A stretch of 64,000 nt of DNA, taken from Streptomyces pluripotens. Its GTDB lineage: Bacteria > Actinomycetota > Actinomycetes > Streptomycetales > Streptomycetaceae. The stretch covers positions 5,022,001-5,086,000 of the forward strand of contig NZ_CP021080.1 of assembly GCF_000802245.2 (NCBI RefSeq), in the 5' to 3' direction. Made by a program: the position numbers and the translations under genes. The notes beneath the pieces are model-generated. The model worked only from the letters and a program-made list of their open reading frames with translations. It searched no databases and was not told the DNA's origin. Positions 41,799-51,129 of the stretch are shown here, piece by piece. Within the stretch, counting starts at the first letter, position 1. Each line of letters opens with the position of its first letter.

Positions 41799-43145
41799 TC
41801 AGAGCAAACTGGCGATGTCGTCCGTGAGTGAGCTTGCGGCATCGCCGATGGCATCCACCGCGCCACCTACGGCGTCGGCCGCATCGCCGGCAGCGGCGCT
41901 CACCTTATGCGGGTCGACGGTGAACTCCGCGCCCACGGCACCTCCGAGCCCGAGCGCGAGGCCCACCTTCGTGCCGATATGGAACTTACCGTCGTCTCCC
42001 TTGCCAAAGGACACCTTGGCCTCCGCGCCCGCACCGGCCCACCCCTCAGCCGTGGCGCCGGCGCCGATGCCCGCGATCTCGCCTCCCCCGGCGACTCCGG
42101 CCTTCGCCCCGGCGAACGCCTTCGCTTTGGCGTTGAGGCCTTCGAGGTCTGCTCCGGCACCGGCCTGGGCTTCGGCACCGTCGAATCCGGTCCCCCGCAC
42201 GTAGGTGCCGCCGAGATACCCGTAGTCGCCTCGCCGTTCCGCCAGGGCCCGCGCTCCCGCAGACGCTTCGACGGATCCGGCGATTCCCTTGTCCGTCATA
42301 GCGCCGGACGCCCACGCCCTGGCCCCTACCTCAAGGTCGCCAACCGTGGAGAGCTCCAGGTCGCCGTCGGACAGGGTTCCTTTCCCGGCCAGGTGATCGA
42401 GGTCGGCGTACACCTTGGCCGAGCCTTCCTTTCCGTATTTGGGACCGCTGGCGGAGGCGCCGGCGCTGGGGCCCGCCGCCGTGCCCTCGCCGTGCCATTG
42501 CCACCCGTCGGTCTTCGTGTGGGCCCTGTCCTCGGGTGGTTCCTCGGCCTTGTACTTGCCGAGATCGCCCTGCGCCTTGCCGTTGAAGCCGTTGAGGGTG
42601 CCGTCGGTGACGTCGGTATCGACCACTATGGTCTGGAGAGCGAACTCGACGTCCTTGTCGGCGGCGCCCACGTCCTTCACACACTGGTCGATACGAGCCT
42701 GCCAGGAGGCGACGGACCTATGGATGCTCTCCTGATAGTCGGGGTCGTGTGCCAGTGCCTGACGGTCCCCCGGGCTGAGCTTCCCGGTGTCGAACGAGAC
42801 CGTGCCCTGGTCCGACACCTTCATCCCCTGGGCAATGGCGTCGTCTCGTGCCGACTCCAGCTTCTTGCGCAGTTCCACGAACTCGGTGTGCGCATCGCGA
42901 AGGACCGAGGCGATCGCCTTGGCCTCGACCTGGGCTTTCTGAAATTCCTTGAGAGTGATGCCGAGACGCTTCTGGGCGACATCCCCGCTGAACCCCGTCC
43001 ATGATGAGCCGAGGGTGATGCCGTGCACGTTCTTCCCGTACGCTGTCTCCTGCTTGTGGAACTCCTTCGCCATCCCCTCCCAACGGTCCGCGGCCGTGGT
43101 GAGCGTGGAGAGGTCGGTCGTCGTGATCTCTTGGTACGTCGGCAC
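41799..43145 (-). CDS. large WXG100-domain protein, likely type VII substrate
   Basis: A 448-residue protein. The N-terminal 110 residues form a helical hairpin with the WXG motif variant in SSWTGFSGDVAQ, typical of ESX/type VII substrates. The middle is helical and charged (about 110-200). The C-terminal half is rich in Gly and Ala and carries alternating GAxAxA/KAKAFAG patterns up to VGGAVDAIGDAASSL. No toxin domain or signal peptide is visible, so it may be a structural or delivery protein. No EccC-type ATPase is near; the export machine must be elsewhere. Confidence 0.75.
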   Translation of the reverse strand: MPTYQEITTTDLSTLTTAADRWEGMAKEFHKQETAYGKNVHGITLGSSWTGFSGDVAQKRLGITLKEFQKAQVEAKAIASVLRDAHTEFVELRKKLESARDDAIAQGMKVSDQGTVSFDTGKLSPGDRQALAHDPDYQESIHRSVASWQARIDQCVKDVGAADKDVEFALQTIVVDTDVTDGTLNGFNGKAQGDLGKYKAEEPPEDRAHTKTDGWQWHGEGTAAGPSAGASASGPKYGKEGSAKVYADLDHLAGKGTLSDGDLELSTVGDLEVGARAWASGAMTDKGIAGSVEASAGARALAERRGDYGYLGGTYVRGTGFDGAEAQAGAGADLEGLNAKAKAFAGAKAGVAGGGEIAGIGAGATAEGWAGAGAEAKVSFGKGDDGKFHIGTKVGLALGLGGAVGAEFTVDPHKVSAAAGDAADAVGGAVDAIGDAASSLTDDIASLL

Positions 43146-43424: not shown

Positions 43425-43783
43425 GGACGAGGTTCTCTCCGGTCTCCCGCGCCCCGGTCCGGTCGTCCGCGTCGAGGCCCGACGTACGGGAAGCGGTCCA
43501 CCGCGCCGAACGCGTTGCCCAGCGCCTGTACCACGGTCTTGGAGCCATTGGTGCAGCGGATCATGCAGCCCAGGTCGAGATCCACCGTCCTGGTCGCGGC
43601 CGACCGCAGCGACGCCCGGATCCGGCCGAACAGACCACGCGCCTCGCCAGCCGTCCGCCGAGCGGCGGCCTGTGGCGAGGTCCAGTTGAGGTTGACCCTG
43701 ATCAGCCCCGACGTCACGCCGTGCTTGGCCAGGGAGACCGTAGGGACGGCCTTCGTCAGGTCCACGGTGGCCGGCTTGGTCAT
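43425..43783 (-). pseudogene. truncated TerD-family tellurium resistance gene
   Basis: ATG 43783 follows GAAAGG. About 115 residues of a TerD-family protein can be read: VDLTKAVPTVSLAKHG, GLIRVNLNWTSP, DLDLGCMIRCTNGSKTVVQA. After FPYVG one extra G in a GGG run shifts the frame; in the next frame it goes on as LDADDRTGARETGENL, the Ca-binding DD motif of TerD. Then TerD homology stops at about 43430 and WXG-type sequence begins. About 75 C-terminal residues are missing, so the gene cannot be functional. Confidence 0.8.
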
Positions 43784-44035
43784 GCGGCGCCTTTCGGGGT
43801 AGGTCCGGGGCGACGACCATACAGTCGGGGCGTGAGACACCGCAGAGAGTGGGTCGTTTGGTTCTCTGCCAACCGTGTACGACCGCCGGGACGGGATGGA
43901 AGTCGTAAGCGCCGCCTCCGGTCGGCGATTCGCCCGTTGACGGTCTGGTGGAGTGCTCCGCTGCCACCCGACGCGGAGCGGACCGACGGCCCCACGCGTT
44001 TCTGTGGGGCCGCCCGAGTCATGCCGGGACGAGCG

Positions 44036-45565
44036 TCAGACGGCCGGGTCGTGATCCACGAGCTTCAGGAGTCTGAGCAACCCGCTCGTAGCGGCCAGAG
44101 CCGCGGCATCCTCGGCAGGCGCATCCACCGCCCAGTGGGCGAGGTCATTGCGGTAGTCCCGCACGGTGGCCAGCCGTCGGCTGATGTCCTGCTGTTCGAA
44201 GGGCCACTGCAGTCTGTCCCAGCAGTGGGCGTCCTCCACCAGGAAGACGTACTGGCCGAGACTGGGATGCTGACCGCGCTCCACTGTCCTGCGTATTTGC
44301 TTCGGCAGCTCGTCGGCGGAGAAGCGCTTGCTCAAACGGCGCAGCCGCCGTTCCAGCTCCTCCAGGAGGATGAACGGCTCGATGCGCTGCTTCAGCTGCC
44401 CCGCGAGATCGGTCGAGGTCAGAATTCCGATCACCGTGTTCTCGCCATCCACGATGATCGTGAAGCCGCTCCGCTGGATGCGATCCATCCGGTCGAAAAG
44501 GGCATGTTCCACGCGGGCGGTCTCGGGATGCGGATCCAGGGCGTTGGCCACCGTGGCAGTCCTGCCGCCCAGCTGCGCCCGTGCGATTCCCTCCCAGGTG
44601 ACGACCCCACGCAGCACGTTGTTGTGGTCCACCACCGGAAGCTGGGAGAAGTCCCTTTCGACCATCGGGGTGATTGCCCGGCTCAGTGCATCGCCCGCCC
44701 GGACCGTCACGACCTCTTGGACGAACGGAAGGTTGCCGATACGCCAGGTCAGGTCACGGTCACGCGGGCCATCGGCGTTCGGACGTGCCTGCTGGTCATC
44801 TCCCCGCGCCTGATCACGGATGCCGTCTCCGAGCTCTGTGGACCCCTCCGCGGACACGGTGACGAGGCCGTCCAATTGCCCGTCGCCGAAGTGAGGATCG
44901 ACCCGGAGCCCGAGCTCCGCGAGGTGCTGGTCCACCAAGTCGGTGACGTCCGAGGTGCGCCGCTTCCACCCCCACAAGCCGATCAGATCACGGGCGGTCA
45001 ACTGCCGTGTGCCGCTGTCCCTGACATCGGTCACCAAGTCCTCCGGGCTGCCCGGGGGCTCGCCGTCGCCCATGTAACCCGGGTCCGTCCCCGTCTTGGC
45101 GAGAGCCTGGACGCGTGCCGCGGCGTCGCGCCGACTCAACTCGCTGACGGTGAGGAAGGCCCCCATGCTGTCGCGTAGATCACCCCGAATGGCAGCTCGC
45201 TCCACGGACGGGCGCACCCAGCTCGTCCTCCGCACGTGCCGGAAACCCGGGGGCGCCTCGGCCCGGAATTCGTACGGTCCGGTCAGCACGCCGAGGGCCA
45301 CGACCGACAGGTGCTTGCGCGGCATGACGATGTAGTCGCCGATCTCCATCGTGATGAAGCGCCAGAGCTGGCGCTTCCAGCTGTCGATGGTGCCCACCGC
45401 TTCGCCCGGGTACGCCTTGGCCAGCAAATCACCGATGTCGTCGGCTGAAGAGCAGTCGCCGAGGTCGCCGAGCTCCTTCCAGCCGACGATCGCCAGTTTT
45501 TCGGAGAGCGCAACCTGCTCCCGTTCCCCGGACTGCCCGCCCCGCACCGTCCAGGCCCGTATCAT
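44036..45565 (-). CDS. EVE/Mrr-N-like, CBS-pair and HEPN-like domain protein
   Basis: A 509-residue cytosolic protein of unusual architecture. Residues 1-130 (RAWTVRGGQSGEREQVAL, EIGDYIVMPRKHLSVVALG) resemble the EVE/PUA-like N-terminal module of Mrr-type restriction proteins in actinobacteria. A winged-helix-like segment lies at about 190-240. Two CBS motifs follow: 283-330 (QLPVVDHNNVLRGVVTW) and 340-395 (FTIIVDGENTVIGILTSTD). Such pairs bind adenine nucleotides or related ligands. The C-terminal 110 residues are helical and contain R472-NDLA-H477, the Rx4-6H pattern of HEPN ribonucleases (YRNDLAHW). An inducible nuclease or sensor in defence is a reasonable guess. It stands alone, near vapBC and an integrase remnant; no partner is visible. 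Confidence 0.7.
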   Translation of the reverse strand: MIRAWTVRGGQSGEREQVALSEKLAIVGWKELGDLGDCSSADDIGDLLAKAYPGEAVGTIDSWKRQLWRFITMEIGDYIVMPRKHLSVVALGVLTGPYEFRAEAPPGFRHVRRTSWVRPSVERAAIRGDLRDSMGAFLTVSELSRRDAAARVQALAKTGTDPGYMGDGEPPGSPEDLVTDVRDSGTRQLTARDLIGLWGWKRRTSDVTDLVDQHLAELGLRVDPHFGDGQLDGLVTVSAEGSTELGDGIRDQARGDDQQARPNADGPRDRDLTWRIGNLPFVQEVVTVRAGDALSRAITPMVERDFSQLPVVDHNNVLRGVVTWEGIARAQLGGRTATVANALDPHPETARVEHALFDRMDRIQRSGFTIIVDGENTVIGILTSTDLAGQLKQRIEPFILLEELERRLRRLSKRFSADELPKQIRRTVERGQHPSLGQYVFLVEDAHCWDRLQWPFEQQDISRRLATVRDYRNDLAHWAVDAPAEDAAALAATSGLLRLLKLVDHDPAV

Positions 45566-45829
45566 GCCCGTCCCCCGTCAATCGTCCGCATGCGCACCTG
45601 AGTCTCCCCTGTCGGCAGACTCAGTACAAGCGAGATCACAGTTCGGTACTCAGACCACTGCGGCCAGCGCTTCGATGCGACAGGACGCTGAAGCCTGGCG
45701 GACGCCGCCTGATGGACACGCTGCCGACGCGGGCTTGGTGCAGCGGAGGCGGCGGCATCGTTACCGGGCCGCTCTGGCTGGTGCGGGCGCCGACCGTCGG
45801 TCCTGACCTGCGCCGCGAAATGCTGGAGG

Positions 45830-46243
45830 TCAAACCTTGATGACGGTGACACGTCCTCCGCACAGTGCGGTGAGATCGTCCGGGTCGGATGTGAGCACGG
45901 TGACGGGGCCATGGGCGGCGAGGGCGGTGGCGCCGAGCATGGCGTCGATGGCGTTCTTGTGGCCGTGCAGGCCGGCGTCGGCGAGGAGGGCGGCGGCGTG
46001 GCGGGCGATGGGTTCGGTGACCGGTTCGACGACCAGGCGGGAGAGCGTCCACTCCAGGGCCGGTCGGTTGATCCGAGGGTGGACCACCTCGACAAGAGTT
46101 GCCGCGGAGGTGATCACCCGCAGGTCGTCGGCGCGGGCGAGGGCGAGCCAGCCGGTGACAGTGCGGTCACGCAGCACGGCCTTGGCCAGGCCCTCGCTGT
46201 CGAGGACCAGGGTGCCGCCGGGGACGGCGGGGGAGCGGGTCAT
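45830..46243 (-). CDS. vapC: PIN-domain toxin (VapC-like)
   Basis: A 137-residue PIN-domain ribonuclease. Acidic active-site residues can be placed at Asp15 (LVLDSEGLA), Glu52 (ATLVEVVH), Asp100 (NAIDAMLG) and Asp120 (TSDPDDL), matching the four-acid pattern. Such toxins cleave tRNA or rRNA and stop translation. The ATG overlaps the antitoxin stop (ATGA), the usual antitoxin-first arrangement. It lies near an integrase remnant, which suggests arrival on a mobile element. Confidence 0.9.
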   Translation of the reverse strand: MTRSPAVPGGTLVLDSEGLAKAVLRDRTVTGWLALARADDLRVITSAATLVEVVHPRINRPALEWTLSRLVVEPVTEPIARHAAALLADAGLHGHKNAIDAMLGATALAAHGPVTVLTSDPDDLTALCGGRVTVIKV

Positions 46244-46503
46244 GCGGCGTTTGCCCCGCCTCGTGTCTGCTGCTGACGGGCCTGGTGGAGCTGATCGCGC
46301 AGAGCCTGGATCTCCTCGTCGGTGACGGGTCCGTGCTCGGCCTCGGCAACCTGGATGATCTCGTTGAGGTTGTCGCGTTCGATCTGGCGGGCCACGGCGG
46401 CGGCTACGTAGGCGGACAGCCCGGAGGGTCCGCTGCGGGCCTTGGCCGCTTCCGCGATGTCGCGCGGCATCGTGATGGAATACTTGCCGGTAGTCTCAGA
46501 CAT
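46240..46503 (-). CDS. vapB: VapB-like antitoxin
   Basis: An 87-residue protein starting at ATG 46503. The N-terminus (KYSITMPRDIAEAAKARSG) has the ribbon-helix-helix pattern, and the rest is helical and charged (LNEIIQVAEAEHGPVTDEEI), suited to wrapping the PIN toxin. The protein should bind its own promoter. Upstream, GTAG-GATAA-GTAG direct repeats surround a likely -10 (TAGGAT). The frame is open further upstream without a ribosome-binding site. It is coupled to the toxin by a 4-bp overlap. Confidence 0.88.
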   Translation of the reverse strand: MSETTGKYSITMPRDIAEAAKARSGPSGLSAYVAAAVARQIERDNLNEIIQVAEAEHGPVTDEEIQALRDQLHQARQQQTRGGANAA

Positions 46504-46679
46504 GCTACTTATCCTACCTCTTGTCTTCCCGGACAGCTCGGCGGAGGAGTTCGCCGTATGCCTCGGTTTCTTGTGTGTTTGCGCGCTGTCTGACGTGCGC
46601 AACGGGACGTCCGAGGGCGCCATCGTGACTTGGCCCGGATGCGTTCACCTGGTCAGAGAGGTGGTGGACGCCATGAGCC

Positions 46680-47119
46680 TTTGGGGAAGCGCACGATCAG
46701 CGCGGTTTGAAGCAGCAGACCCGCGGAGAGGTGCGGATCGTGCCGATCCCGCCTCCGCTGGTGCGGCTGCTCCGCGAGCACCTGTCGGCACGGCGGAGGG
46801 CGGCCGGCTGTTCTCCAGCGAGCGGGGCAACGTGATCGCGGCCTCGTCGTACTCCCGGGCGTAAAAGCGGGCTCGGGAACTGGCGCTCGTCCCCGATCAG
46901 GTCTCCTCGGTCCTGGCCTTCCGGCCGTACGACCTCCGGCACGCTGGCGTGTCCCAGTGGCCCAACTCGGGTGTCCCGGCCCCGGAGGTCGCCGCTCGCG
47001 CGGGCCACTCGGTGGATGTCCTGTTGAAGATCTACGCCAAGTGCGTCGACGGCCAAGAGCAGGAGGTGAACGACCGGATCATGCAGGGGCTGGCAGAGGG
47101 GGACGAGTCCATGGACTGA
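46680..47119 (+). pseudogene. C-terminal remnant of a tyrosine integrase
   Basis: Three frame pieces together give the C-terminal third of a Streptomyces phage or AICE-type tyrosine recombinase: GLKQQTRGEVRIVPIPPPL, then after a frameshift GGRLFSSERGNVIAASSYSR, then a TAA stop in place of a Trp codon, and finally FRPYDLRHAGVSQWPNSG, GHSVDVLLKIYAKC with the active-site Tyr. The catalytic core Arg and N-terminal arm domains are absent. It marks the border of a former integrative element. No tRNA is next to it, so the attachment site could not be placed. Confidence 0.88.
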
Positions 47120-47221: not shown

Positions 47222-47671
47222 TCATCGGTGTAGATGGGCCAGGATTCCGTCGCTCACGGGGTACAGGCGTTCATGGGGCAGGAGTTTCCGGGCTGTGTCC
47301 AGGTCTCCGTCCCGTACACGGGCGTGGACCGTGTGGGCGAGCGGGGTGATGTCGACGATGGAAACGATCCACTCGTCGGCGTAGAGGCGTGCGGCTTCGC
47401 CGGCAAGGCCGAGCTGGAGCGACCGGTGGGGCAGTGGTTGAAGGCGCAGGTCGCGTTCGGGGTCCCATTGCACCCGGGCCGGGGCCCGTTTCAACTGGCG
47501 TTTCCATGTGGCGCGGTCGGTGTGGAGCCCGTGTTCGTAGTGGGACAGGCAGGCGTGTTCCAGTGCCCACTCGAAGCCTTCGCGGGTGATTTCGATGGAG
47601 AGGACGGTTTCCTGGCCTTCCTTGGTGCCCCATCCGCAGCGGTACATCATCCACAGGAACGACGGCTTGAT
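47222..47671 (-). pseudogene. DUF4291-family protein, N-terminus removed by IS3
   Basis: About 149 residues remain, from the IS3 end at 47672 to the stop at 47222. Conserved DUF4291 blocks are present: IKPSFLWMMYRCGWG, SIEITREGFEWAL, QWDPERDLRLQPLPHRSLQ, and AARLYADEWIVSI. Full members have about 190-200 residues; the first 45 or so, including the usual RxRxxY-type start, are replaced by the IS end. Translation from the internal ATG at 47650 might still occur. The function of DUF4291 is unknown. On the other side of the IS there is a different gene, so the missing part was deleted rather than just displaced. Confidence 0.85.
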
Positions 47672-47927: not shown

Positions 47928-49364
47928 TCATGCTATCGCCAGCGGCCAGGGGGACGGAATTCGTGATCCTCGGTAGCGGTAACGCGTAGTGCGCACCTTT
48001 GCCGGGTCAAATAGATCCCGTTCCTGCCCTCTGGGCCACCATTCGCCACCGCAGTAACGGCGACGCAGTTCCTTCCAGTTCATTCGGCGGTGCTTGCTAC
48101 GAATCCATTTGATGACCCGACGCCATGCGTAGGCGCTCAGGTATTGGAAGGTAGCGCTAGACACCCCCGGCCGGAAGAACATGGTCCAACCTCGCAACAC
48201 CGAGTTGAGTCGGCGTAGGAGTTCGTCCAATGGTTGGTTTGTGTTGACCTGTCGGCAGATCGTCTTGACCTTGGCCATGACGGCGTGAAGTGCCTTCTTG
48301 GCTGGGTAGGTGTAGACGTACCATCGGTCCGTGCCCTTCTTGCGATGGCGTTGGATGCGCCACCCCAGGAAGTCCACGCCCTCATTGATGTGGGTGATTA
48401 GGGTCTTCTCCTCTGACAGGTGCAGCCCCATTCTGCTGAGCACCTGTGCTGCCTCTTCCTTGAGGGTGTAGGCGTCTTCCTTCGTGCCAGTAACCGCAAT
48501 CACCCAGTCGTCCGCGTACCGGCAGAGCCGGTAATTAGGCAGACCGCGGCGACGGCGCTTCGCTCGCTCGTTAGGTGTAGACGCTGGCCCTCCTGGCGCC
48601 TGGGCGAAGTGCTCGTCCAGGACGGCGAGGGCGACGTTGCTGAGCAACGGCGACAGGATCGAACCTTGCGGAGTACCGGATCTACTCTCCTTCAACGAGC
48701 CGTGTTCCGTGAGGATGCCCGCTTTCAGAAAGGCTTTCACCAGCACCAGGACGCGTCTGTCCCCGATCCGAAGGCGCACCCGGTCCATAAGGGCCGGATG
48801 GGCAATCTCGTCGAAGCAGGCCCGGATGTCACCCTCAACCACCCATTCGTAAGAGTGGGAAGTCAAGTGTCTTACCTCGGACACCGCGTCGTGGACCCGA
48901 TAGTTGGGGCGGAATCCGTACGAGCACGGAAGAAAATCTGCCTCAAAGATTGGTTCCATCACCAGCTTCAGGGATGCTTGCACCACCCGATCGCGGATCG
49001 TACTGATTCCCAGGCGTCGACGCTTTGTCGACCCCGGTTTCGGAATCAGTCGCTCCCGTGCCGGAAGCGGCAGGAAACTGCGATCCTTCAGAGAGGAACG
49101 CAGCGCGCCGAGAAAACCCTCGACGCCCTGCTGCAGCGAAATGGACGCAGCCGTACGGCCGTCCACCCCAGCGGTTTTGGCTCCCCTGTTACTCCGAACC
49201 CGGTCCCATGCGACAAGCAAGAACGCGGGGTCGGTCACGAGGTTGTACAGGTCGTCAAACCGCCGATGAGGATCATCTACGGCCCAACGGTGCAGCTTGG
49301 TCTGGATCTCCAGTACCCGGCGCTCGGCCTTCATCAAGGCCCACTCCAGTTCGTCGGTATTCAC
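47928..49364 (-). CDS. ltrA: group II intron reverse transcriptase/maturase
   Basis: A 478-residue intron-encoded protein from GTG 49364, preceded by GGGAGGG. Reverse transcriptase motifs are in order: RLIPKPGSTKRRRLGIST, the first catalytic Asp near 179 (GDIRACFD), SGTPQGSILSPLLSN (about 229-243) and YADD at 283-286. A maturase X domain follows (RLNSVLRGWTMFFRPGVSS). No H-N-H endonuclease (CxxC pairs) is seen at the C-terminus, so mobility probably relies on replication forks or single-stranded targets. The protein helps splicing and copies the intron into new sites. An identical start of the same gene is in copy 2. Confidence 0.95.
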   Translation of the reverse strand: MNTDELEWALMKAERRVLEIQTKLHRWAVDDPHRRFDDLYNLVTDPAFLLVAWDRVRSNRGAKTAGVDGRTAASISLQQGVEGFLGALRSSLKDRSFLPLPARERLIPKPGSTKRRRLGISTIRDRVVQASLKLVMEPIFEADFLPCSYGFRPNYRVHDAVSEVRHLTSHSYEWVVEGDIRACFDEIAHPALMDRVRLRIGDRRVLVLVKAFLKAGILTEHGSLKESRSGTPQGSILSPLLSNVALAVLDEHFAQAPGGPASTPNERAKRRRRGLPNYRLCRYADDWVIAVTGTKEDAYTLKEEAAQVLSRMGLHLSEEKTLITHINEGVDFLGWRIQRHRKKGTDRWYVYTYPAKKALHAVMAKVKTICRQVNTNQPLDELLRRLNSVLRGWTMFFRPGVSSATFQYLSAYAWRRVIKWIRSKHRRMNWKELRRRYCGGEWWPRGQERDLFDPAKVRTTRYRYRGSRIPSPWPLAIA

Positions 49365-49972
49365 CAACGCCCTCCCGGCATTCCAGTTCCCTCCCTGCTG
49401 ACTTGCTGGCCCCCTTCGCCGTGTACGCGCCTTTCGCGCGCTCGGACTACTACGGGGCCTCCGCCCCACTCCACGGCCAACAGCCGACAACGGGCCTGCC
49501 CATCACCGCACCGGATGTCCGGCGAGAGGGCGACCGGGAGTGGTTCCCACGTTCACTAGGAGTCGTTCGGCCAGGTCGGCGTCCAGCTCTATCCCGGCAG
49601 CATCGCCACGCCTACACCGCAGGTATTCAGCGTGGCCTCTGAGCCGTTTCACCGCGGGCGGCTTCAGAGTCGGCCCATCTCCTTGGAGGACGGGTCGCGT
49701 ACTGCAACCCCGGCCCATATCCGCCAGGTTGGAGCCGGGAGGTACTGTTACGGGACTTCGGACGCTGATTCACTTTCGTTACGCCTTCTGGCCTTGCTAG
49801 CCGGACCCGAGCCGTCTGGCAGTGCCGACTCGTCCCGACGTTGTCGAGGCTGCTTCCCGCCCTCCTCAGCGTTCCCTGAGTTGGACTGCCTCCAGCTTCA
49901 ACCGGGCCTCTACGGCGGTCCGGCGGTGGGGATTCGCACCCGCACACGATCTCCTAGCGCCTCGTGGCGCAC

Positions 49973-50799
49973 GCGGTGGTTGTACCAGTCGATCCACTCG
50001 GCGGTGGCCAGCTCGACCTGGGAGAGCGTCTTCCAGGGTCGCTGGGGTTTGATCAGCTCGGTTTTGTACAGGCCGATCGTGGACTCCATCAGGGCGTTGT
50101 CGTACGCGTCACCGACGGATCCGATGCTCGCCGCGATGCCGGCGGCGTCCAGGTGCTCGGCGAGGCGGAAGCTCGTGTACTGCGACCCGGCGTCCGAATG
50201 GTGTACCAACTCGCCTGGCTGTATGGGGTGTTGGTCCCGGTCGCGCTGCCAGATCGCCATCTCCAGGGCGTCCAGCACGAACACCGTCTCCTTCACCGTG
50301 GCGGCCGACCAGCCCACGATCCGGCGCGAGAAGGTGTCCACGACGAACGCGACATAGACGACGCCGGCGAAGGTCTTCACGTGCGTGAAGTCGGCTACCC
50401 AGCAGCGGTTTGGGGCGCCGGCGACGAACTCGCGGTCGACAAGGTCGGGGGCCCGCTCGGCCTGCCCGCCGGGGATCGTGGTGATGACGCGTTTGCCGCG
50501 CACCGCGCCCTGGATGCCGAGCTCGCGCATCAGGCGCTCGACGGTGCAGCGGGCCACCGCATGCCCCTGCCGGTTCAGCTCGCGCCAGATCTTCCGGGCC
50601 CCGTAGACACGGTAGTTGGACGTGTAGACCTCGTGGATCCTCTCCTTGAGCTCCTCGTCACGCACGGAACGGGCAGAGGGGGTTTCGAGGCGTTTCTTAT
50701 GGGCGTAGTACGTGGAAGGGGCGATCTGGCAGTCGTGTGCGGTGAGCGTTCTGCAGATCGGCTCGACCCCGCCGAAGCGGTCCCGGTGCTCGTCGATGA
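49973..50799 (-). CDS. IS3 transposase orfB first exon, copy 1
   Basis: The catalytic part of an IS3-family transposase, in the -1 frame relative to orfA and normally made by programmed frameshifting. The HTH_21-like YGARKIWRELNRQGHAV region is followed by the rve integrase core with the DDE residues in WVADFTHVKT, HHSDAGSQYTS and NALMESTIG. The coding frame ends at the intron boundary after DWYNHR; read through, it stops at 49910 in intron RNA sequence. It differs from copy 2 at about 15 residues. Confidence 0.9.
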
Positions 50800-50802
50800 A
50801 CG

Positions 50803-51129
50803 CTACGAGCGCGTGTGTGGCCGGTCGAGCTCGGCCGCGAAGAAACTCGCCGCGGCCTTCAGGATCTCGTTCGCCCGCTTCAGCTCAGCGTTCTCCTTCT
50901 TCAACGCCTTGAGCTGGGCGGACTCCTCCGTCGTCGTCCCTGGACGCTGCCCCGCGTCGATCTCGTACTGCTTCACCCAGTTCCGCAGCGTCTCGCGGGA
51001 ACCAATGTCGAGCTTGTCCGCCACCGCTTGCAGGGCGGCCGTCTCGTTCGGGTAGTCGTCGCGCACTTCGGCAACCATGCGCACCGCGCGACGGCGCAGC
51101 TCAAGCGGGTAACGGGAGGGTCGTGCCAT
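50803..51129 (-). CDS. IS3 orfA, copy 1
   Basis: A 108-residue helix-turn-helix protein, the first reading frame of the element. Residues about 5-60 (RYPLELRRRAVRMVAEVR, IGSRETLRNWVKQYE) bind the terminal repeats. A leucine-zipper-like helix ends the protein (SAQLKALKKENAELKRANEI). The transposase is normally a frameshift fusion of orfA and orfB. Confidence 0.93.
   Translation of the reverse strand: MARPSRYPLELRRRAVRMVAEVRDDYPNETAALQAVADKLDIGSRETLRNWVKQYEIDAGQRPGTTTEESAQLKALKKENAELKRANEILKAAASFFAAELDRPHTRS

Follow-up and report, generated by a model that had tools for sequence, protein, structure and literature searches.

In a 64,000-nucleotide stretch of the Streptomyces pluripotens genome (contig NZ_CP021080.1, positions 5,022,001 to 5,086,000; hereafter, the window), a gene at 44036..45565 on the minus strand encodes what is probably, on the balance of the evidence, a single-protein defence effector in which a predicted EVE/YTH-like reader module is fused to the N terminus of a core related to the anti-phage protein DS-11. 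The genome is assembled as a single contig of 7.35 Mb, and the open reading frame (ORF) is intact, with no internal stop across its 509 residues. The chain is read as an EVE/YTH-like module of the PUA superfamily (residues 1-165; 45071..45565), a small winged-helix-like segment (residues 186-240; 44846..45010), a linker (residues 243-270; 44756..44839), a CBS pair (residues 272-395; 44381..44752), and a HEPN-like helical domain (residues 396-509; 44039..44380), all on the minus strand. An earlier note, made from the sequence letters, had proposed a one-chain architecture at this location, and the ORF, the parts, and the residue numbering were all confirmed. The identity of the protein as an EVE-fused relative of DS-11 is strongly supported: as judged by sequence comparison, it is intact and well conserved and belongs to an EVE-fused DS-11 branch whose CBS-HEPN half was already known. 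Its trigger, ligand, and RNA target are ones that we infer.

Residues 192-485 match the NCBIfam model DS11_antiphage (NF053863; E 2.5e-58) over model positions 1-292 of 305, beginning within the winged-helix-like segment, which is common to DS-11, and extending into the predicted helices of the HEPN-like domain. DS-11, reported with DefensePredictor (PMC13092281), combines CBS and HEPN domains in one protein and has been validated as an anti-phage system. Its defence is abolished by the CBS substitution Y157A and by HEPN catalytic mutants, and an AlphaFold3 prediction gives a dimer with ATP at Y157 (PMC13092281). Fusions of HEPN and CBS domains had been predicted in 2013 to be ligand-regulated RNases acting on RNA stability (PMC3710099). 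An Escherichia coli protein of 365 residues (L070) reaches 404.9 bits with the DS-11 model and has Tyr at residue 157; a near-identical gene (≥99%) is present in 127/5426 E. coli genomes, and on its sequence we take L070 as DS-11 or a DS-11 orthologue. The window protein aligns along the L070 core, with F306 (44648..44650) at Y157, the CBS ligand contact, and R472/H477 at R330/H335. Phe or Tyr occupies the F306 position in 120 of 126 homologues, which were collected among the matches listed from three homologue searches (in one, 120 listed of 132), leaving out P0002, which is 99% identical to the window protein. The replacement of Y157 by F306 would be a conservative change, and an adenine contact is predicted there. 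The likeness to DS-11 therefore comprises a single gene, a winged-helix-like start, a CBS pair, a HEPN R-N-x3-H motif, and an aromatic residue at the CBS ligand site, whereas the E. coli protein lacks the EVE module that the window protein carries.

The CBS pair, which had been recognized earlier from the letters, matches Pfam PF00571 with E 2.3e-12 in a scan at E 1. A Cse2 Pfam match in the window protein (E 0.015) fell under its cut-off and was rejected. The winged-helix-like segment is a strand-helix-helix-strand-strand arrangement in the AlphaFold model, and its name is our reading of that predicted secondary structure. The linker has a predicted local distance difference test score (pLDDT) below 50 and is probably disordered. 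In sequence sources, homologues are named CBS domain-containing protein, restriction system protein, or hypothetical protein.

The HEPN-like domain carries a predicted Rx4H catalytic motif, R472-N-D-L-A-H477 (44135..44152, minus strand), and an upstream Ex3[KR] motif, E405-x3-R409 (44339..44353, minus strand). All four residues R472, H477, E405, and R409 are invariant in alignment A1, whose 76 rows are near-full-length homologues. In the wider set, 119/126 homologues have both R472 and H477; of the other seven, six lack a residue at that place and P0118 ends in a different C terminus. In another alignment, of 52 rows (A8), E405 is found in 46 rows and R409 in 48, four of the remainder being gaps. 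The motif by itself proves nothing, since R-x4-6-H arises in 78% of shuffled versions of residues 395-509 (R[NDH]x3H in 5.7%). Conservation, however, led us to reject coincidence: the earlier note, which had given the motif and its numbering correctly, had suggested examining whether the two residues vary freely among homologues, and such variation is excluded by these counts. In the AlphaFold model of the full protein (pLDDT 85.5), the C-terminal region is predicted to form helices at 384-412, 422-429, 436-444, 446-452, 458-475, and 483-503. Helix 458-475 contains R472-N473, and the loop ahead of the last helix, 483-503, contains H477, while E405-x3-R409 falls within the long helix 384-412. 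The motif thus sits at a helix end and in the next loop before the last helix, the placement described for HEPN domains together with their Ex3[KR] motif (PMC3710099). A HEPN fold is accordingly a prediction founded on where the motif lies, on the order of the helices, and on homology to DS-11; of the earlier proposal of a HEPN domain, the conserved and suitably placed motif stands, and no independent HEPN fold match was obtained.

In the N-terminal module, residues 3-169 match the PADLOC candidate defence family PDC-S02 (E 2.4e-46), and PF28530 appears in precomputed annotation of homologues of the window protein. A separate AlphaFold model of residues 1-168 (pLDDT 94.8) has an EVE/YTH-like fold, and its best Protein Data Bank (PDB) matches by Foldseek and VIA-align are YTH readers of N6-methyladenosine (m6A) and EVE-type proteins, in agreement with the EVE-like character first guessed from the letters. 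By predicted fold, these residues belong with EVE/YTH domains, the likeness being moderate. Relative to the EVE/YTH readers YTHDC2, VcaM4I, and 2eve, identity is about 10% or less, and the window module, unlike them, has its own Pfam family, PF28530. The likeness to Mrr-type proteins that had also been noticed is supported by the PDC-S02 match, a PDC-S02 relative (L022) carrying Mrr_cat. The module is common to the window protein and the PDC-S02/Mrr-type proteins, with 35-42% identity in the 16 non-CBS proteins of a further alignment (A6). The effectors differ: Mrr_cat, a restriction-endonuclease domain, is present in the two of these 16 that were scanned (L007 and L022), and CBS-HEPN takes its place in the window protein. 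No recognizable DNA-nuclease domain was found in the window protein by Pfam or NCBIfam, and the only REase_II match from PADLOC (PDLC03448, E 1.1e-4) spans residues 25-142, i.e., the N-terminal module. For want of a recognizable DNA-nuclease domain, we describe the protein as one that would work like, rather than be, type IV restriction.

EVE-like modules were also seen in other settings. One is joined to a McrB-type AAA ATPase in an acidimicrobial metagenome-assembled genome (L033:9683-12130; NF008457, E 2.1e-40, under cut-off). In L034:3890-5155 and L037:9965-11242, the module stands ahead of another helical domain without a CBS pair. Both give weak PF18735 (HEPN_RiboL-PSP) matches under the cut-off (L034, E 0.017; L037, E 0.00054), and R-N-x3-H is present in L034; they are possibly a second reader-RNase fusion lacking CBS, the PF18735 match being a lead to another HEPN effector. 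P0118, a metagenomic protein of 439 residues, has an EVE-like module and a winged-helix-like segment followed by an unrelated C terminus that contains a hydrophobic stretch and has no Pfam match, a single case of a possible effector swap.

The core is combined with two different putative readers. With EVE and RAMA profiles built from A6 and from eight proteins, 85 core-bearing frames in 104 loci (duplicates and fragments counted) divided into 33 with EVE, 19 with RAMA, and 33 with neither. R-x4-H is present in 80 of the 85, the other five being pieces or side frames. RAMA (PF18755) was named by Pfam in each of three proteins scanned (L057, 2.8e-23; L066, 1e-22; L006, 5.3e-22). In a tree of 68 cores, obtained by a quick search with a midpoint root, support by the Shimodaira-Hasegawa-like approximate likelihood ratio test (SH-aLRT) is 98 for the EVE group (25 rows) and 100 for the RAMA group (18 rows). 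Each label requires a single change on the tree, which is consistent with one fusion event in each line but no proof of it, and the E. coli DS-11-family protein sits on the RAMA/reader-less side. The RAMA-fused DS-11-like proteins, from Streptomyces and relatives, share with the EVE form the core and an N-terminal putative reader and differ from it in reader family (PF18755) and in forming a separate clade. That clade comprises L057, L059, L065-L069, L073, L075, L076, L078, L080, L082, L083, L088, L089, L095, and L006; L006 is extended further at its N terminus by a long stretch that by eye resembles RNase H and has no Pfam match.

RAMA has been suggested as a reader of N6-methyladenine, with mixed evidence (PMC11037411), and a survey of BREX systems lists RAMA and ASCH/PUA as reader modules (PMC12839542). 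A literature search that lacked supplements and most subscription papers found no paper for "EVE domain" with "CBS domain", and only the BREX survey for "RAMA domain" with "HEPN"; the main text of an EVE survey (PMC7641849) contains no CBS, HEPN, or Mrr. Within the literature searched, neither the reader-fused architecture nor the RAMA counterpart appears to have been described. The earlier statement that no named system has this order of domains therefore needs amending for the CBS-HEPN half, already named DS-11, and in that literature stands for the reader-fused whole.

These observations suggest a one-gene alarm in which marked invader nucleic acid is sensed and RNA is cut in response. The protein is best regarded as a DS-11 subtype whose modified-base reader would assist in triggering or directing a nucleotide-gated RNase. 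Tentatively, and with rather less assurance than we attach to a defence role, we propose a one-gene, modification-dependent form of abortive infection in which exchangeable readers (EVE, RAMA) are mounted on a common nucleotide-gated HEPN RNase, such that modified phage DNA would lead to RNA cleavage and not to DNA cutting. The protein would dimerize through its CBS and HEPN parts with an adenine nucleotide bound, and the EVE module would bind invader nucleic acid at a modified base. The molecule read is most likely DNA, given that this module also occurs in fusions with Mrr DNA-nuclease and McrB-type domains; RNA may be read instead, since most YTH domains read RNA. Base binding would release or concentrate the HEPN RNase, which would cut RNA and stop phage replication via dormancy or cell death. 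A type-IV-like, modification-dependent sensor would thereby be coupled to an RNase effector. The existence of EVE- and RAMA-fused forms points to modified nucleic acid as an input to the CBS-HEPN switch, and modification-dependent immunity would come to include a possible single-chain RNase effector. Point mutants in the EVE pocket and at F306, R472, and H477 could tell apart base reading, nucleotide gating, and RNA cleavage within the same polypeptide.

By the Nei-Gojobori method, with the parts cut at approximate positions, all four parts of the protein are under purifying selection, with ratios of nonsynonymous to synonymous substitution rates (dN/dS) of 0.14-0.28. Matches at E ≤1e-20 occur in 33/392 genomes of the genus, its own included, and reading of the match rows placed the full EVE-to-HEPN chain in 16 of these 33, the others having the core or pieces. 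In a phylum draw, 4/296 genomes match, with the full chain in its own genome only. The DS-11 model at E ≤1e-30 matches 53/391 genomes of the order, with 10 exceeding the cut-off, and 2/396 in a phylum-wide draw. A phage collection yielded two partial CBS-type matches and a plasmid collection 15 records, one of which, a Streptomyces plasmid with 33% identity, covers more than 80% of the query. Streptomyces sp. CB02009 (L009) shares 43952..45642 (minus strand) at 88% DNA identity. This stretch consists of the gene and ~80 bp on each side, and nothing else of window positions 34001-58000 is shared with L009 in matches over 150 bp; it therefore looks as if the gene had travelled as a cassette of its own. 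In L010, a further 430 bp is shared, at 46683-47104.

Among 14 relatives with flanking sequence (L009-L020, L036, and L072), at least eight lie within 10 kb of a defence gene of a known kind, either Druantia-like or belonging to type I restriction. L009, L010, and L011 lie near a DruE-like helicase with a UvrD helicase; L012, L013, L014, and L018 lie near a PD-T4-6-like kinase with type I restriction-modification (RM); and L019 lies near HsdM. Other neighbours include a NACHT protein at L017 and a PIN protein at L036. The kinase of the L013, L014, and L018 island is 89-95% identical to that of L012, and this island occurs in Streptomyces, Nocardiopsis, and an unclassified actinobacterium. The island lies beside the gene in each of these, so in that lineage the two travel together. 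The association with defence islands that the earlier note had proposed to examine is supported by the neighbourhoods of relatives, the window's own neighbours being less supportive.

Several results weigh against a modification-sensing DS-11 relative. The window protein scores 197.6 bits on NF053863, under the 260-bit cut-off, which three EVE-fused relatives (L077, L079, and L081) exceed. Foldseek of the N-terminal module gave a single match with E <1e-3, and ranks 1-20 had query template modelling (TM) scores of 0.34-0.50, a large root-mean-square deviation, and ~10% identity. The EVE assignment depends on this fold comparison, since a PDB profile search with the module found no EVE protein; a search using an alignment with full-length rows gave CBS chains among the 60 matches listed. 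An EVE/YTH fold alone does not establish base binding, and the reading of a modified base is a prediction. For the HEPN-like domain, the matches listed in full-length structure searches were CBS proteins, with no HEPN protein among them. Its hhalign comparison to HepT gave E 0.01 with a probability of 4%, although with the motif in register, and that to RiboL-PSP a probability of 0.7%, both of which we judged too weak to count; a PDB profile search gave four hits above E 0.2 and no HEPN protein. In the core tree, long branches join the two EVE sub-branches, the L053 group and the window group, and the program warns of a possible false union. By analogy with DS-11, which itself has no reader, a reader would be unnecessary for core function. 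No restriction system was found among the 10 window-neighbour ORFs scanned by Pfam. For the relatives, PADLOC was run on 10 hand-chosen neighbours, the others being assigned by eye or not judged, with no random control, and the eight defence-flanked loci represent only about 3-4 separate islands.

Four other explanations were considered. The reader might select the RNA substrate, a modified base in transfer, ribosomal, or transfer-messenger RNA, for the HEPN RNase, with the CBS nucleotide signal as the sole trigger. In its favour, YTH domains are the closest folds and mostly recognize m6A in RNA (PMC11037411), and CoCoNuT systems join YTH-like and HEPN domains with predicted RNA targeting (PMC11090510), but the sequence family of the module is fused to Mrr_cat (L007 and L022) and to a McrB-type ATPase (L033), and we regard this possibility as unlikely. 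It is also rather improbable that the CBS pair is the sole sensor, as in DS-11, and that the EVE module only docks the protein on nucleic acid with little specificity, leaving a nucleotide-sensing stress or defence RNase. DS-11 does defend as a CBS-HEPN protein (PMC13092281), family members without a recognized reader exist (L058, L062, and E. coli L070), and control of RNA stability by ligand was foreseen for HEPN-CBS fusions in 2013 (PMC3710099). Against this, purifying selection acts on the EVE module as on the other parts (dN/dS 0.19-0.22), and two different putative readers, EVE and RAMA, occur on the core.

A guard of host modification, in which the EVE module bound to host DNA modified by a neighbouring RM system restrains the RNase until the mark is lost in an attack, would be in keeping with the type I RM methyltransferases adjoining L012, L013, L014, L018, and L019. 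None of the 10 scanned window neighbours is an RM gene, however, and L009, L010, and L011 adjoin DruE-like helicases instead; we consider such a guard very unlikely. It is scarcely credible that the gene has decayed into an inactive relic of a mobile island: a recombinase remnant, an IS3 element, and a group II intron are found in the surroundings, and several related copies are broken (L010 and L036, fragments in G461 and G473, and a stop in G307), yet the window ORF is intact, keeps the predicted catalytic residues, and has a dN/dS of 0.21 versus L009.

The proposed reader-RNase fusion invites comparison with CoCoNuT type IV systems, in which YTH-like modules and HEPN RNases likewise occur within one defence class, with predicted RNA targeting, and whose neighbours include Druantia III and type I RM (PMC11090510). 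CoCoNuT systems are built on McrB GTPases and coiled coils (PMC11090510), whereas Pfam, NCBIfam, and PADLOC detected neither in the window protein, and no McrB-type GTPase with coiled coils was found among the 10 window-neighbour ORFs scanned by Pfam. CBS does not occur in the main text of the CoCoNuT paper (PMC11090510).

In the window, a consensus scan of 43700-47000 found no promoters or terminators. Upstream of the gene, a VapC-like PIN toxin (45830..46243, minus strand; PF01850, E 2e-7) is accompanied by a putative VapB-like antitoxin (46240..46623, minus strand), which is proposed from position and sequence and has no Pfam match. A tyrosine-recombinase remnant at 46865..47116 (plus strand; YDLRHAG ... 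GHS in frame translation) gives PF00589 at E 0.011, with 16 bits versus a cut-off of 27.1. The vapBC pair and integrase remnant reported previously are therefore secure for VapC, putative for VapB, and represented by a short, sub-cut-off end for the recombinase. Farther along lies a DUF4291 gene (47222-47650, minus strand; PF14124, E 1.5e-47), which may be truncated, since the listed ORF starts at profile position 51 of 180. It is followed by a group II intron reverse transcriptase with a maturase domain (47928-49490, minus strand; PF00078 and PF08388) and an IS3-type transposase pair (49910-51129, minus strand), of which the larger ORF was confirmed by Pfam. Close to the IS3 pair, from about 51196, are genes of conjugation type, as judged by eye. 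On the other side of the gene, a 448-residue protein (41799-43145, minus strand) has no Pfam match and a glycine/alanine-rich C-terminal half, and by eye resembles WXG100/ESX proteins.
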